The position numbers were made by a program, and so were the translations under genes. The notes under the pieces were generated by a model that was not told the DNA's origin, ran no database searches, and saw only the letters and a list, made by a program, of their open reading frames with translations. This document shows positions 31,664 through 50,722 of a stretch of 64,000 bases of DNA, piece by piece. The stretch is taken from contig NZ_CP077085.1 of assembly GCF_014268455.2 (NCBI RefSeq), positions 1,054,001 through 1,118,000 on the forward strand. Reading direction: 5' to 3'. Origin of the DNA: Pseudomonas shahriarae (GTDB lineage: Bacteria; Pseudomonadota; Gammaproteobacteria; Pseudomonadales; Pseudomonadaceae). The first letter of the stretch is position 1. Every line of letters begins with the position of its first letter.

Positions 31664-31693
31664 AAAAAGAGGACTCTTCGGAGTCCTTTTTTT
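31664..31693 (+). terminator. pnp terminator
   Basis: GAGGACTC-ttcg-GAGTCC with a UUCG tetraloop, flanked by A5 and followed by seven Ts: a strong intrinsic terminator closing the rimP-pnp cluster. Confidence 0.95.
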
Positions 31694-31744
31694 GGGCTGC
31701 AGGAAAGTGAAGGTAAATCAGCCGTTTAGCCCAGGACAAAAGCC

Positions 31745-31784
31745 GCAACTTGCATGCAGGCACGATGGGCTTCATGCAAGTTGC
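31745..31784 (+). promoter_or_regulatory. Candidate activator-binding site upstream of the BON gene
   Basis: Perfect 12-bp inverted repeat GCAACTTGCATG-N16-CATGCAAGTTGC. Its centre is about 113 bp upstream of the predicted sigma-54 start, where upstream activator sequences of enhancer-binding proteins normally lie. The cognate protein is not identified. Confidence 0.65.
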
Positions 31785-31810
31785 ACGATTCTGAATTTCG
31801 ACAAAAAACA

Positions 31811-31823
31811 TAAGCTATTGAAT
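31811..31823 (-). promoter_or_regulatory. Candidate IHF site
   Basis: On the minus strand ATTCAATAGCTTA matches the IHF consensus WATCAANNNNTTR with one mismatch, in an AT-rich stretch midway between the inverted repeat and the sigma-54 promoter, the usual place for IHF-assisted looping. Confidence 0.5.
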
Positions 31824-31851
31824 TTAAAGGTTTTTATTCTTATGCGAAAGT

Positions 31852-31867
31852 TGGCACAGCGCCTGCA
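31852..31867 (+). promoter_or_regulatory. Sigma-54 promoter of the BON-domain gene
   Basis: TGGCACAGCGCCTGCA: TGGCAC at -24 and TGC at -12 with exact GG-to-GC spacing, close to the TGGCACGN4TTGCA consensus. Predicted start about 31878, giving a leader of some 60 nt with a CTGCAGC/GCTGCAG hairpin (31883-31910) before the GGAG of the BON gene. Confidence 0.8.
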
Positions 31868-31937
31868 ACAGTACTGGTAACCCTGCAGCATTAACGTTGA
31901 AACGCTGCAGACCTTCGAAAAAACAGGAGTTACTCGT

Positions 31938-32285
31938 ATGAAGAAGTTCGCTATCGCTGCTGCAACTGCCACCGCGCTGACCCTGACCATGGCTAACGTT
32001 GCGTTCGCCCAAACTTCCCAGGCTCCAATGGTTGTAGCCGCCGGTGAAGTGGACAAGGCCAAAGAAGCGACCACCGATACCTGGATCACCACTAAAGTCA
32101 AAGCTGACCTGGTTACCGAGAAAGGCATTCCTGGCACCGACATCAAAGTCGAAACCAACAAAGGTGTGGTCTCCCTGTCCTCCACTGTTGCTGTGACTGA
32201 TGCACAAAAGGAAATGGCAGTAGCCATCGCCAAGAAAATCAAAGGCGTTAAAGCTGTATCGGCCGACGGCCTGAAAGCAGAGTAA
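31938..32285 (+). CDS. Periplasmic BON-domain protein (OsmY-like)
   Basis: 115 residues: signal peptide cut after VAFA (about residue 24), then a single BON domain (about 45-113) with TDTWITTKVKADLV, the conserved GVVSLSSTV turn and KGVKAV. BON domains bind membranes or phospholipid and are found in envelope-stress proteins such as OsmY. Exact role unknown. SD CAGGAG. It stands alone between the pnp terminator and its own terminator, behind a sigma-54-type promoter with candidate UAS and IHF site, which implies signal-dependent expression. Confidence 0.9.
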   Translation: MKKFAIAAATATALTLTMANVAFAQTSQAPMVVAAGEVDKAKEATTDTWITTKVKADLVTEKGIPGTDIKVETNKGVVSLSSTVAVTDAQKEMAVAIAKKIKGVKAVSADGLKAE

Positions 32286-32516: not shown

Positions 32517-35462
32517 TTACTCGGCATCCAGGTGCATTGGCGTAATTACCCGGCCATCTTTCTCGGCCTGGCCGAGGCTGGCATCAATGAAGTACACCCG
32601 ATCGTCTTCCAACTGGCCCTTGTCGACCAGATAGTCCTTGATTGCACTCGCGCGGTCCTGGCCCAGTTTGCGTAGCAGCACATCACTGCCGCTCCAGAAC
32701 TTGATCACGCCGTCGCGCAGCTTCGCCGAGCGCTCATCGCTGCCCAGGTCTTTCCACTCAGCCGGTGGCTGTTGCTTCAAGCGGGTGCGATAGATGCCTT
32801 CGAGCAGTGGCGCCTTTTCCTTTTCCGGTACTACAAGCAATGACGCCTGGGCCGGGACTTTATCGCCACGGCGCTGGAGTATCTTGTAGTAGTTGTACTG
32901 ATACTCACGCTCAAGCCGCTCGGCGGCCAGGAACGGACCATCGCTGCTGGCTGCCGCAGTGCCTTCGATTTCCAGGCGCAGGGCAGGGCGCTCCTTGAGG
33001 GCTTTGGCGAGGCTGTTGAGGGCCGACTCGGCGTCTTTGCTCAGGGCGCTGGAGCCTGCGGCGAACGACACGTTGCCCAGGTCTTGCGAGCCTCCACCGG
33101 TCACCAGCCCGCCAATGAACTTGAACGGCGCCGTTGCCGCGCGCACTACCAGGTTGCGCAGGGTCTGCCAGACGATCGGCATCACACTGAACTGCGGGTT
33201 GTTCAAGTCGCCGGTCACCGGCAACTCGATGGAGATCTTGCCGTCGGTGTCCTTGAGCAGGGCAATTGCCAGGCGAATCGGCAGGTCCACCGCGTCCGCG
33301 CTGTCGACTTTCTCGCCCAGTTGCAGTTGCTCCACCACCACCTTGTTCTCGGCCTTCAACTGGCCCTTGGTGATCACGTAGTGCAGGTCCAGGTTGAGTC
33401 GGCCCTTGCGGATACGGAACCCGGCAAACTTGCCCGAGTACGGTGTCAGGGTGGTCAGCTCGACGCGTTTGAAGCTGGTGGCGATATCCAGCGCGGCCAT
33501 CGGGTCAAACGGGTTGACACTGCCCTTGATCGTCACGGGTGCATAGCGGTCAACCTTACCCTTGATGTCCACGCTGGCCGGTTTGGCCTGGCGGCTGTCG
33601 ATGGTGCCGATCTGGCCATTGAGTTGCTGGATCGCCGTGGCAAAGTTCGGCGTCAGGCTGAAGTCGGCAAAGTTGGCCGAGCCGTCATTGATCGCGATCT
33701 GCCCGATACGGATGCCCAGGGGTTTTTCATTGCTCGCGCTGGATTTGGCCGTCGATTTGGCGCCACTGTCGGCAGGCTGTGGGATCAGCAGGTCATCGAC
33801 GTTGGTGGTGCGATCATCGTTGATCATAAAGCGCGCATAGGGTTGCAGCAGGTTGATCTTGTCGATCGACAGGCTGTTGCCGTGCTGGTAGTTCAAGCCT
33901 TCCACCACCAGTCGCTGCCACTTGAGGAAGTCGCGGGTCTTGAGCGTGTCCAGGGTGTGCAGCTGATCCACTTGGGCGCGGCCGGTGATCTGCAGCGCGA
34001 GGGGCTCGGTGCTCTTGAGGTTCACATCGAGGTTACTGCCGAGCATGCCGCTGCGCAGTTCCAGGCGGATAAAGGGGCTGATATAGGACTGGGCAACCCG
34101 CAGGTCGATATCCTTGGTGTCGACTTTCAACTTGGCGCTGACCGGGTTCAGGTTGACCTGGCCGCTCGCCTGGATCTTGCCCTGCTTGCCCAGGCCACTG
34201 TCGATCTTGAGGGTGAAGGGGCTTTGATTGAGGCTGTCGAAGTCTTGTACACCGACATTCAGCGGGCCCAGCTCCAGGGCCACCGCAGGTTTTACCTGGC
34301 GATCAGCCAAGTGCACCTGATAGTTACGCAGTTGCACATCCTTGAGCAGCACTTGCCAAGGCTTGCTCGGCGCTGTCGACTCGGGTTTTGGCGAATCGGC
34401 CGCGGCGGGAGCGCTTGCTGGTTCAGGCTTGGTGGCTGGCTTGCTCGGCTGGCTGGCGAACAGTTTCTGCCAGTCCAGTTGGCCATCGGCTTCACGGGCG
34501 GCCCAGGTTTCGAGCTTGTTACTGCGGATTTTGCCCACGATCACTTGCTGCTTGGCCAGGTCGATCGAGGTTTCGCTGACATCCAGGCGCTCCAGGCGGG
34601 CCAGTGGCCGGCCATCCGGGGCCTTGATCGCGAACGGCGCGATGCTCGCCGAGACGTTGGTCAGGTTCAGTTCGGTTTCTTTGGCCAGGTTCAGCTTGTA
34701 GTCGGTACTGAAATTAAGGGTGCCGTCTTCCAAGACCAGGGGCACGGCGTCCCGCACATAGGGCCACCAGACTTTCATCTTGCCATCTGTGACCTTCAAC
34801 TTACCCTCAGAGGCGATTGGCACCAGGCTGAAATTGCCGGTCCAGTCGATCTGCCCGCCCTCGGGGCCTGCGGCGACCAGGGTCATGTCGGCATTGTCTT
34901 CGGGCAGGGTGCTGAGGTTTTTCAGCTCGAAGTCGAGTTTGTCGTAGAGGAACTCGATAGGCTCGCTGGGGCGCACGTCTTCGAAGTGCACGTAACCGCT
35001 CGCCAGCTTGATGCGTTCGATGCGCAGCGGGAACGGTTTGCTTTCGGGGTCATCGGGTGTCGGTTCGCTCGGCGGCAACTTGAACAGTTGTGCCAGGTTG
35101 AGGGTACCGGTCTTGTCGAAGAGGATTTCGGTCTTCGGCTTGTCCAACTGCACATCGGCCAGGTGCAGGGCGCGGGTCCAGAGGCTGTCGATCTGCAGGT
35201 TGGCGTAGAGGCGTTCAAAGCCCACCTGTTCCTTGCCCGGCTCACCGATTTTCAGGCCCCAGAGGGTCAGTTCCAGGCTGAACGGGTTGAGCTCGATACG
35301 CTCGATACGGGCCGGCACGGTAGCGTAATTGGCCAACTGTTGGTTGGCCACGCGAAGCGCAATACCGGGCAGAATCAAAAAGCCCAGCAAGCTGTAGAGT
35401 GCAAGGGCGGTCAGCAAGGCGCCTGTGGCGCGAATCAATCCTTTGGGCATGGGTGACGCCAT
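32517..35462 (-). CDS. DUF748 / AsmA-like large envelope protein
   Basis: 981 residues: an N-terminal membrane anchor (LTALALYSLLGFLILPGIAL, about 14-33), many repeated beta-rich segments typical of DUF748/AsmA-like proteins (about 40-800), Pro/Ala/Ser-rich linker near 345-370, and a C-terminal OmpA-like stretch (NVSFAAGSSALSKDAESALNSLAKALKERPALRLEIEG). AsmA-like proteins are linked to lipid transport across the periplasm, and the OmpA-like end may contact peptidoglycan or the outer membrane. Function unproven. The ATG at 35462 is kept; internal alternatives would remove the anchor. Confidence 0.85.
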   Translation of the reverse strand: MASPMPKGLIRATGALLTALALYSLLGFLILPGIALRVANQQLANYATVPARIERIELNPFSLELTLWGLKIGEPGKEQVGFERLYANLQIDSLWTRALHLADVQLDKPKTEILFDKTGTLNLAQLFKLPPSEPTPDDPESKPFPLRIERIKLASGYVHFEDVRPSEPIEFLYDKLDFELKNLSTLPEDNADMTLVAAGPEGGQIDWTGNFSLVPIASEGKLKVTDGKMKVWWPYVRDAVPLVLEDGTLNFSTDYKLNLAKETELNLTNVSASIAPFAIKAPDGRPLARLERLDVSETSIDLAKQQVIVGKIRSNKLETWAAREADGQLDWQKLFASQPSKPATKPEPASAPAAADSPKPESTAPSKPWQVLLKDVQLRNYQVHLADRQVKPAVALELGPLNVGVQDFDSLNQSPFTLKIDSGLGKQGKIQASGQVNLNPVSAKLKVDTKDIDLRVAQSYISPFIRLELRSGMLGSNLDVNLKSTEPLALQITGRAQVDQLHTLDTLKTRDFLKWQRLVVEGLNYQHGNSLSIDKINLLQPYARFMINDDRTTNVDDLLIPQPADSGAKSTAKSSASNEKPLGIRIGQIAINDGSANFADFSLTPNFATAIQQLNGQIGTIDSRQAKPASVDIKGKVDRYAPVTIKGSVNPFDPMAALDIATSFKRVELTTLTPYSGKFAGFRIRKGRLNLDLHYVITKGQLKAENKVVVEQLQLGEKVDSADAVDLPIRLAIALLKDTDGKISIELPVTGDLNNPQFSVMPIVWQTLRNLVVRAATAPFKFIGGLVTGGGSQDLGNVSFAAGSSALSKDAESALNSLAKALKERPALRLEIEGTAAASSDGPFLAAERLEREYQYNYYKILQRRGDKVPAQASLLVVPEKEKAPLLEGIYRTRLKQQPPAEWKDLGSDERSAKLRDGVIKFWSGSDVLLRKLGQDRASAIKDYLVDKGQLEDDRVYFIDASLGQAEKDGRVITPMHLDAE

Positions 35463-46157: not shown

Positions 46158-47585
46158 TCAGCTTTCGCTGGCAACCCCGGTCTTGCGCCGTGGAATGCCC
46201 AGGCGCTGGCGCCGTTCCCACAGGCACTTGCGGCTGACGCCCAGTTTGCGCGCCAGTTCGGTCTCGGTCATATGGTCCTGGTGCTCCAGGACGAAGTGCT
46301 GGAAGTAGTCTTCCAGGGACAAGTCTTCCGTAGGCTCATGGCTGGTGTTACTGCCGCCCTGTTGTGGTGCCAGGCCAATGAAGTCGTCATCGTCCAGGTC
46401 ACTCAGTTCGATATCAATGCCCAGCAGCTCGGCGGAGATCTGCGGGCTCTCCGAAAGAATCACAGCCCGCTCCACGGCGTTTTCCAGCTCGCGCACGTTA
46501 CCTGGCCACGAATAGTGGCGGATAGCTTGCTCGGCGTCGGCCGCAAACGTCAGGTCGGTACGGTTGACGCGCGCGCTCTGGCGCAACAGGAATGCATTGG
46601 CAATCTCGTTGACGTCGGCACCGCGTTCGCGCAGGGCCGGCAGCTTGAGGGCGATTACGTGCAGGCGGTAATACAGGTCTTCGCGGAACTGGCCGATTTT
46701 CGCCAGGCTCTTCAGGTCCCGGTGAGTCGCGGCGATCAGGCGCACATCGACTTTTTGTGACTGCACCGAGCCGACCCGGCGAATCTCGCCTTCCTGCAAT
46801 ACGCGCAGCAGGCGTGCCTGGGCTTCCAGGGGCAGCTCACCGATTTCGTCGAGGAACAGCGTGCCGCCGTCCGCCGCTTCCACCAAGCCGGCGCGTCCGG
46901 CGCTGGCGCCGGTAAAGGCACCTTTCTCGTGGCCGAACAGTTCGGATTCGATCAAGGATTCGGGGATTGCCGCGCAGTTCACCGAGATCATCGGGGCCTT
47001 GGCGCGCTTGGACAGGTTGTGCAGGGCGCGGGCCACCAGCTCTTTGCCGGTGCCGGACTCGCCCTGGATCAGGACATTGGAGTCCGTGGGCGCAACCTTG
47101 CGGATCTTGACGTACAGGTCCTGCATGGGCGGGCAGGAGCCGATGATGCCGATTTCGCCATTGCTGTTGTCGACCCCGGGTTTGTCGCTGGCGGCCTTGC
47201 CGGCCGGCCGTTCCGCCGGGGCACTGTTGGTGGACTGGCGGTCACGCAGGATGCGCGCCACGGCCTGGAGCATTTCGTCGTGGTCGAAGGGCTTGGCGAT
47301 GTAGTCCACCGCGCCCATCTTCATGGAGTCTACGGCCGAGCGCAGGCTGGCATAGCTGGTCATGATCAGCACCGGCGTGCCCTGGCCCAGCTTGATCAGT
47401 TCGGTACCGGGCGCGCCAGGCAGGCGCAGGTCACTGACAATCAGGTCGAATGTGGGAATGCTGAAACGCTCTTGGGCTTCCTGCACCGAGCCGGCTTCGC
47501 TGACCTGGTACTGATTACGTTCAAGCAGGCGACGCAAGGCAGAGCGGATAATGGTTTCGTCTTCGACGATCAAAATGTGCGGCAT
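46158..47585 (-). CDS. cbrB: Sigma-54 response regulator CbrB
   Basis: 475 residues, NtrC family: receiver domain (phospho-acceptor Asp in [10 protein letters not shown] near 52), AAA+ domain with GESGTGKE and the sigma-54 contact loop GAFTGA, and a Fis-type HTH ([23 protein letters not shown]) at the end. With CbrA it controls carbon/nitrogen balance, mainly by switching on crcZ. It lies 22 bp after cbrA. Confidence 0.97.
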
Positions 47586-47607
47586 TGATTCAATTCTCTC
47601 GACGGTC

Positions 47608-50556
47608 TCAGTTCACAGCGGACGTCGCTTCGACATGACGCGGCAAGGTCACCCGAATACGGGTGCCGCGTTGGCTTTCGGTGTCAGCCGGGCTGTCGAT
47701 GGTGATTTGTCCATAATGCTCTTCAACGATGGAATAGACCAGTGCAAGGCCCAGACCGGTACCTTCACCAGGATCCTTGGTGGTGAAGAAGGGTTCGAAC
47801 AATCGGTCCATGATGTTCTGTGGAATACCGCTGCCTTCGTCTTCGACGATCAGGTCTACCGTGTGCTCGTAAGCCTCGCTCTTGACCCTTACCGCACTGC
47901 CGGCGGGTGTCGCGTCGCGGGCATTGGACAGCAGGTTGATCAGCACCTGGGCCAGGCGTTGTGAGTCGCCGACCACCCAGTGTTCCGGATCGCACAAGTT
48001 ATAGAACTGTACTTCGAAATTACGCCGGTTCAAGGCCAGCAGCCCAATAGCATCCTGGGCGACTTCGGCCAGGCACACCGCTTCATCGTGATTCTGGTGG
48101 CCGCCGGCATGGGCGAAGCTCATCAGCGATTGCACGATGCGCGAGACGCGTTTGGTCTGCTCGAGGATCTGCCCGCTGATTTCGGTGATTTCGTCGTCTT
48201 CTTCGCGCTCCTCGCGCAGGTTCTGCGCCAGGCAGGCGATACCGGTGATCGGATTGCCGATCTCGTGGGCCACGCCTGCCGCCAGGCGCCCGATACTGGC
48301 CAGGCGCTCGGAATGCACCAGCTTGTCTTCGAGCATCTGGGTTTCAGTGAGATCCTCGACCAGCAATACCAAGCCACTGTTGCCTGGGGCCAGGGGTTCG
48401 TCGATGGCCGCTTTGTGCAGGTTCAGCCAGCGGGTCTGGCCATCCAGGGCCAGGTGCTGTTTGTGCAAGTGTTCGTCGGGCAGGTTGATAAAGCCCTGCA
48501 GCAACTCGCGCCAGGGATCGCCGATGGTGGTCAGGCGCGAGCCGACCACGCGCTGGGCGGCGATGCCGGTCAGCTCTTCCATGGCCTTGTTCCACATCAG
48601 GATCTCCTGGTCCTTGGCCAGGGAGCACACGCCCATGGGCAGTTCCTGCAGGGTCTGGCGGTGGTAGCGGCGCAGGGCATCGAGTTCGGCGGCAAGGCCG
48701 GTGAGGCGTGAGTGGTAGTCTTCCAGCCGGCTCTCGATAAAGTGGATATCTTCAGTTACATAGTTTTCGCCGCCGGCCTTGTAGGGCAGGAAGGTCTCGA
48801 CCATGTCCTGGGACACGCTGGGGCCCATCAACCCGGACAGGTTGGCCTCGATGCGGTCGCGCAGGCGGCGCAGGGCATAGGGGCGGCGCTCGTCGAAAGG
48901 CAGGTACAGATCGCGCAGTGCCTGTTCCACTTCCTTTTGTGCAGCCTTGGCGCCCAGGGGCTTGGCCAGTTGCGTGGCGAATTCCTGGGGCGAGGCGGCA
49001 TGCAGTTCGCGGCGTTGCGGGCGGCGTACGTTATCCACCGCGCAGGCTTCGGCCGCACTGGTTTCTTCGGGGCTGGCGTTGGTGAACAGGGAGATCAGGG
49101 TGAACATCAGTACGTTGGCCGCCAGCGAGGCGATGGCTGCCATGTGCCAACTGGTGTCATCCAGCACGTAGATCATGTTCAGCAGCGGGATGTAGAAACC
49201 CTGCAGGTTGCCGACCAGTGGTAGCAGCATGGTCACCAGCCACACCAGGATCCCCGCCAGCAGCCCGGCGATAAATCCACGCCGATTGGCGGTTGGCCAG
49301 TACAGCACCGACAACACCCCCGGCAGGAACTGCAAGGTGGCGACGAAGGCCACAATGCCGAGGTTGGCCAGGTCTTGCTCGGCCGCCATCAGCAGGTAGA
49401 AGCCATAGCCGGCCATGATGATGGCCACGATCAGCGCGCGGCGTGTCCATTTCAGCCAGCGGTAGATATTGCCTTCGGCGGGCGGCTGATACAGCGGCAG
49501 CACCAGGTGGTTGAGGGCCATGCCCGACAGCGCCAGGGTGGTGACGATAATCAAGCCACTGGCCGCCGATAACCCACCGACATAGGCCAGCAGCGCCAGG
49601 GATTTACTGTTGGCGGCGATGCCGATGCCGAGGGTGAAGTATTCCGGGTTGGTGGTGGCCCCCAGTTTCAGCCCGGCCCAGAGGATCAGCGGCACCGCCA
49701 GGCTCATCAGCAACAGGAACAGGGGCAGGCCCCAGCTGGCGCTGACCAGCGAACGCGGGTTGAGGTTCTCGGTGAAGGTCATGTGGTACATGTGCGGCAT
49801 GACGATGGCCGAGGCAAAGAACACCAGCAGCAACGTGCGCCAGGGGCCTTCCTGCAGCGGGGTGTGCAGGGCGGCGAGGGCGGTCTGGTTTTGCAGCAGC
49901 CACAGCTCAAGCTGTTGCGGGCCGTCGAACACCCCGTACAGCGCGTACAAGCCCACGCCACCGATGGCGATCAGCTTGATCACCGACTCGAAGGCAATCG
50001 CAAACACCAGGCCTTCGTGTTTTTCCCGGGTGGCGATATGCCGCGAGCCGAAAAAAATCGTGAACAGGGTGATCAGCGCACAAAAGCTCAGGGCCACCCG
50101 ATGTTGCACCGGCTCGTGGGTAAGAATACCGATGGAATCGGCCACTGCCTGGATCTGCAGGGCCAGCAGCGGCAGCACGCCGATCAGCATGAAGATCGTG
50201 GTCAGCGCGCCGGCCCAGGTGCTGCGAAAGCGGAAGGCAAACAGGTCAGCCAGCGACGACAGTTGGTAGGTGCGGGTGATTTTCAGGATCGGGTACAGCA
50301 GCACCGGCGCCAGCAGGAAGGCCCCGGATACCCCGAGGTAGCTGGAAAGAAACCCATAGCCATATTGGTAGGCCAGGCCCACCGTGCCATAGAACGCCCA
50401 AGCGCTGGCATAGACGCCCAGGGACAAGGTGTAGGTCAGCGGGTGGCGAATGATCGCCCGCGGGATCATCCCACGCTCACTGATCCAGGCCACCCCGAAC
50501 AGCGCGGCCAGGTAGGCGGCGCTGATCAGCAGCATCTGGGTCAGGCTAAAGCTCAT
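47608..50556 (-). CDS. cbrA: Sensor histidine kinase CbrA with SSS transporter domain
   Basis: 983 residues. The N-terminal half is a 12-13 TM sodium/solute symporter-like domain (about 1-500), followed by a STAC-like linker, a PAS domain ([22 protein letters not shown]), HisKA with the phospho-His in [13 protein letters not shown], and HATPase_c with [14 protein letters not shown] transporter-kinase fusion reported to take up histidine. A start two codons upstream (50562) is possible; [16 protein letters not shown] is the conserved start. It overlaps cbrX. Confidence 0.97.
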
Positions 50557-50722
50557 CGGCATCTTTTTGGCTCTGCAGGATGAAAGTCACGACGATCAGG
50601 ATCAACCACAGCAGATAGGGGCGATACCAGGCGCCCGTGGCGTCGATCCACCAGTCCATGATGGCGGGAGAAAACAGGTAGATCCCGACGACCAGCAGCA
50701 GGACCAATCGATAGATGTACAT
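50546..50722 (-). CDS. cbrX: Small membrane protein CbrX
   Basis: 58 residues, nearly all membrane: two hydrophobic helices (MYIYRLVLLLVVGIYLFSP and YLLWLILIVVTFIL) around a short acidic loop with IMDWWIDATG. It overlaps the cbrA start by about 10 bp, so cbrA is probably translationally coupled to it. A protein of this size and place, CbrX, is known in P. putida. The start at 50722 is chosen since upstream residues are not membrane-like and a longer frame would run into gluQ. Confidence 0.75.
   Translation of the reverse strand: MYIYRLVLLLVVGIYLFSPAIMDWWIDATGAWYRPYLLWLILIVVTFILQSQKDADEL

Follow-up and report, generated by a model that had tools for sequence, protein, structure and literature searches.

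A putative AlgB-activated sigma-54 promoter upstream of a BON-domain gene and its probable regulon in Pseudomonas

AlgB, an NtrC-type response regulator, and sigma-54 promoters that work with an enhancer and an IHF site are both known. In the KinB-AlgB system of P. aeruginosa, AlgB acts at algD in its unphosphorylated form, for which there are three binding sites, and KinB is able both to phosphorylate and to dephosphorylate AlgB, according to part of a review (PMC10418997). An excerpt of another report describes phosphorylation of AlgB by BphP (PMC6932827). The CbrB-activated promoters of crcZ, crcY and PP2810 in P. putida combine upstream activator sites, an intervening IHF site and a GG-N10-GC element, as far as the available portion of the source describes them (PMC6296734). 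The control region presented here, upstream of a BON-domain gene of Pseudomonas shahriarae, is alike in these three respects and unlike in its recognition sequence, which in the same portion of that source is TGTTAC/GTAACA (PMC6296734), whereas here two dyads stand rigidly 31 bp apart. Judging from sequence comparisons, we consider it very probable that this region is a sigma-54 enhancer-dependent promoter activated by AlgB.

The window, i.e., the whole stretch of 64,000 nucleotides that was analysed, contains the BON gene at 31938..32285 on the plus strand; it encodes 115 amino acids with a signal-like N-terminus and is the presumed target of the control region. Upstream of it lies a 701-aa ORF that we take to be polynucleotide phosphorylase (pnp), at the end of which a hairpin and T run (31670..31693, plus strand) sets pnp apart from the promoter. 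After the BON gene, at 32517-35462, there is a convergent 981-aa DUF748/AsmA-like gene with an OmpA-like stretch C-terminally. The ribosome binding site AGGAG is found at 31925..31929 (plus strand), and the sigma-54 -24/-12 element TGGCACAGCGCCTGCA at 31852-31867 (plus strand), where it had been predicted, with GG at 31853-31854 and GC at 31865-31866 in the GG-N10-GC arrangement. Its score on a simple sigma-54 scale is 22, a value equalled or exceeded by just three sites in the window when both strands are counted. By spacing only, the predicted transcription start falls at 31878 (plus strand), 12 nt past the C of the -12 motif. The IHF-like sequence ATTCAATAGCTTA occupies plus-strand positions 31811-31823 and has one mismatch to WATCAANNNNTTR, the IHF consensus; the near-perfect site of the original prediction is present, on the minus strand. 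Two dyads, to which no strand is assigned, are putative AlgB sites: the distal CGCA-ACT-TGCA at 31744..31754 (centre 31749, about -129 from the predicted start) and the proximal TGCA-AGT-TGCA at 31775..31785 (centre 31780, about -98). An inverted repeat with perfect 12-bp arms, GCAACTTGCATG-N16-CATGCAAGTTGC, spans 31745-31784; with up to three mismatches allowed, the window contains no other match, and 100 dinucleotide shuffles contain none at all.

The comparison across pseudomonads that had been proposed was made with the best 80 of 372 confirmed Pseudomonas relatives of the BON gene plus the window, giving 81 loci that are related and hence not independent. When aligned, the upstream regions consist of conserved blocks amid drifting sequence. 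The conserved unit, hereafter the module, has the pattern TGCA-N3-TGCA-N20-TGCA-N3-TGCA, with the dyads 31 bp apart from centre to centre. It is found with at most one mismatch in 80/81 loci, together with an in-phase promoter element (score 20-23) 86-88 bp past its centre; the sole exception, L063, has a gap of 21 bp and a promoter element of score 22. The minus-strand IHF consensus occurs with zero or one mismatch in 74/80 loci, whereas mononucleotide shuffling of these stretches predicts 8.5. The region is a real control region, and its arrangement of palindrome, IHF site and promoter is far from chance. Lack of conservation, named beforehand as a finding that would speak against the prediction, was not observed.

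Perfect 12-16-12 mirror symmetry is confined to 12/81 BON loci, all similar to this strain. Because the dyads are kept in 80/81, one long palindrome was rejected as the recognition unit: the perfect repeat exists as predicted, but the unit would be the two 11-bp dyads of the module. The same figures bear on a reading of the inverted repeat as a terminator or RNA structure, with a coincidental promoter match. Its position downstream of a gene would suit such a role, but the end of pnp already has its own hairpin and T run, the conserved part is the dyads and their spacing and not the mirror symmetry, and the module recurs ahead of unrelated genes. A terminator or RNA role is contradicted by this conservation pattern, and we give it hardly any credence.

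Beyond the BON loci, all 59 genomes of a genus sample contain the module, with 1-7 matches each, and the reversed control pattern gave no match in any of them. Among genomes of the order outside the family, just 6/111 contain the module, with one match each, and five of these six matches have no sigma-54 element at 40-200 bp; the sixth, the exact match L287, has two weak elements, one of them at 88 bp. Phasing was analysed in 59 loci from the family and genus scans, which are part of all the places found. A sigma-54 element (score at least 20) is found 70-100 bp from the module in 55 of them, and no such element in the other four (L172, L205, L212, L216). The 55 promoter-linked modules have TGCA-A-N-T-TGCA as their core consensus. 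Their promoter distances are 85-89 or 75-77 bp in 54 cases, the latter group being one helical turn closer, and 95 bp in L215 (88 bp in the second register). The 25-bp bin starting at 75 bp contains 56 sigma-54 elements, and every other bin at most four. The region thus has the marks of the enhancer-dependent class, a GG-N10-GC element and conserved upstream sites in fixed helical phase, and the promoter layout originally proposed is backed by conservation, phasing and recurrence alike.

Short symmetric dyads are common to many repressors, and the module could in principle be occupied by a regulator unconnected with sigma-54, a repressor or antiactivator, with a separate activator working from an unseen site. 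We regard this as very unlikely, since an activator fits the fixed distance and direction to the sigma-54 elements, including the group that lies a turn nearer, and also fits the position of the module beside algB.

The double-dyad pattern is found with up to two mismatches at 10 places in the 6.05-Mb genome, and the reversed control pattern at none. At five of the 10, a sigma-54 element with a score of 21-23 lies 85-88 bp away from the centre of the module; the other five have none at 60-115 bp. The search for further copies, suggested along with the original prediction, adds at least four promoters to that of the BON gene. The second (L103) precedes a 100-aa ORF divergent from algB-kinB and followed by DUF1328 and Ivy-family genes; the third (L104) a DUF3509 gene; the fourth (L105) a gene for a 295-aa membrane-type protein with no significant family; and the fifth (L106) a 74-aa ORF followed by a PA3371-family gene. 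In genus relatives, a double dyad is also found upstream of DUF1652 genes (L167, L171, L176, L177, L181, L184, L193; positions of about 1380-2090), which were assigned by Pfam for L167 and L176 and by eye for L171, L177, L181, L184 and L193; these loci have a variant -24/-12 element, e.g., AGGCACG...TATGCG.

In L103, the gene beside the module codes for a regulator with a receiver, a GAFTGA-containing sigma-54 interaction domain and a Fis-type HTH, and the neighbour of this regulator gene for a kinase whose sensor domain is that of KinB (PF16767). On the basis of these domains and this neighbour we take the pair to be KinB-AlgB, and the locus is in this respect like KinB-AlgB of P. aeruginosa; it is unlike the control of algD in that the targets here are small envelope/stress genes with -24/-12 promoters. 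The genome contains 30 matches to the sigma-54 interaction domain, 23 of them strong, and a comparison of the 23 strong activator loci, at 3.5 kb each, gave the module at algB alone (two mismatches), with the others differing by at least four. With a search threshold of E <= 1e-120, AlgB was found in 66/99 family genomes, and the 30 best loci were examined. All but one of them (29/30) have the module, roughly 48-242 bp outside the start of algB and accompanied by an in-phase sigma-54 element that faces away from this gene; the module is exact in 19, has one mismatch in four and two in six. Only L156 has no module. As controls, no cbrB locus out of 30 has the module at up to three mismatches (best 4-6), and when the gap between the dyads was varied at the algB loci (up to one mismatch), 20 bp gave 23/30, 21 bp gave 2/30 and the other gaps from 14 to 26 bp gave 0/30. 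A single dyad-like GCAAGTTGCATG is also present just upstream of algB (L103:3541-3552), and is perhaps an autoregulatory site of this gene.

The distribution of the module over the family follows that of algB. With at most one mismatch it is present in 62/99 family genomes (reversed control 0/99), i.e., in 59/66 algB-bearing and 3/33 algB-less genomes (Fisher p = 2e-15, ignoring relatedness; loss of the algB locus may also take the adjacent site along). Of the three algB-less genomes with a module, two (L205, L216) have it without any sigma-54 element at a distance of 40-200 bp, the third being G006, and the seven algB-bearing genomes that have no module at this threshold include all three algB-bearing genomes of genus g17. 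The BON gene itself fits this distribution. A relative is present in 11/33 algB-less genomes (16 loci), and in none of these 16 is there a module (up to three mismatches), an in-phase promoter element or, in the 420 bp upstream, a sigma-54 element scoring at least 21; in one of them (L298) the BON relative still adjoins pnp-like sequence. Among 30 genomes chosen from the 66 with algB, all 30 have a BON relative, and the best-matching locus has the module (up to three mismatches) and a phased promoter in 22/30; the remaining eight, some of which may not be orthologues, lack one or the other. With these exceptions, the site is linked to algB and missing from genomes that lack this gene, as would be expected of an AlgB regulon.

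The window also contains, 15 kb downstream on the minus strand (46158-50562), a gene pair that we take to be cbrB-cbrA. The co-occurrence comparison covered AlgB and CbrB, two of the 23 strong activators. A different enhancer-binding protein might sit on the dyads of this sigma-54 promoter, and CbrB would be an apt candidate, since it is a pseudomonad sigma-54 activator encoded as near as 46158-47585 and its promoters use IHF too, according to the available portion of the source (PMC6296734). However, 99/99 family genomes contain CbrB, among them 30 that have neither algB nor the module, and the distribution of CbrB does not follow the module. The cbrB loci have no module, none of the CbrB subsites TGTTAC/GTAACA is found in 31700-31938, and the 22 other activator loci of the genome have no module at up to three mismatches. 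CbrB was therefore rejected as the binder of the dyads, and activation by an enhancer-binding protein other than AlgB is in our opinion unlikely.

With AlgB as the activator, two AlgB dimers would occupy the TGCA-N3-TGCA dyads, one near -129 and the other near -98, on the same face of the DNA, since a step of 31 bp is about three helical turns. IHF would bend the DNA at about -61, allowing the AlgB AAA+ assembly to contact the sigma-54 RNA polymerase at the -24/-12 element and to open its promoter complex, with transcription beginning near 31878; the product would be a small BON-domain protein that is probably exported. Such a layout, with two dyads separated by three turns, a site for bending and an in-phase -24/-12 element, is classical for a hexamer-forming activator, and would be expected to function as such. 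We infer AlgB binding, the action of sigma-54 and IHF, the start site, the sign of control and the role of KinB from this arrangement.

Beyond this promoter, the module probably defines an AlgB-sigma-54 envelope-stress regulon together with its DNA site, and on sequence grounds the DUF1652 genes are probably a further target family outside the five promoters of this genome. We also considered algD as a target, using 13 loci of the genus that we take to be algD from the N-terminus. The module is found in 0/13, with five mismatches at best, and algD was rejected as a further target; the target set is thus distinct there from the classical alginate target. About 430-460 bp upstream of algD in L267 there are two exact TGCAATTTGCA dyads 22 bp apart, unlike the 31-bp module. 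Despite the sigma-54 contact motif of AlgB, no such module is present here at algD, the classical target, and a site found family-wide with a short target list makes a sigma-54 role of AlgB in envelope or water stress plausible. We would give even odds to the view that the main and older role of KinB-AlgB in Pseudomonadaceae is a sigma-54 regulon of small exported or membrane stress proteins, algD being a separate branch without the module. In this view, the regulon would comprise the BON, Ivy, DUF1328, DUF3509, DUF1652 and PA3371 families, under a rigid grammar of two TGCA-N3-TGCA dyads at a 31-bp step. An otherwise unexplained palindrome is in this way assigned, and several protein families of unknown function gain leads for future study.

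The BON protein contains one BON match (PF04972) in its 115 aa. It is like OsmY in this domain and in a weak match to the OsmY model NF007858 (53.4 bits), and unlike it in that this score is far below the cut-off of the model (174 bits), so that the protein does not qualify as an OsmY equivalog. PP_4707 of P. putida and PA4739 of P. aeruginosa are BON proteins that we presume to be orthologues. PP_4707 is overexpressed on solid medium and annotated with water subsaturation (unpublished), according to an excerpt of the source (PMC6922523), and the PA4739 transcript is raised by KCl, again according to part of a report (PMC11538994). These two reports suggest that the inducing condition would be osmotic, water or envelope stress. 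The open-access literature searched yielded no tie of PP_4707 or PA4739 to AlgB or sigma-54, nor any of the palindrome or the BON gene, although binding surveys may contain the motif. The site, its rigid grammar and its target set were likewise not found there. For comparison with response-regulator binding data, the relevant sequence is TGCAANTTGCA; for the response regulators of P. aeruginosa, a DAP-seq survey reportedly exists and may contain an AlgB motif. An HT-SELEX survey (PMC8041468) may also contain an AlgB motif.

In the leader of the BON gene, the sequence AACAGGAG at the ribosome binding site is invariant in 35 aligned BON leaders. Consensus folding of a leader hairpin is weak, with four consensus pairs and a covariation term near zero (-0.03). 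An inverted repeat with an invariant outer CTG...CAG is found at 31885-31913 and at the corresponding position in 34 relatives, at the predicted 5' end of the mRNA.
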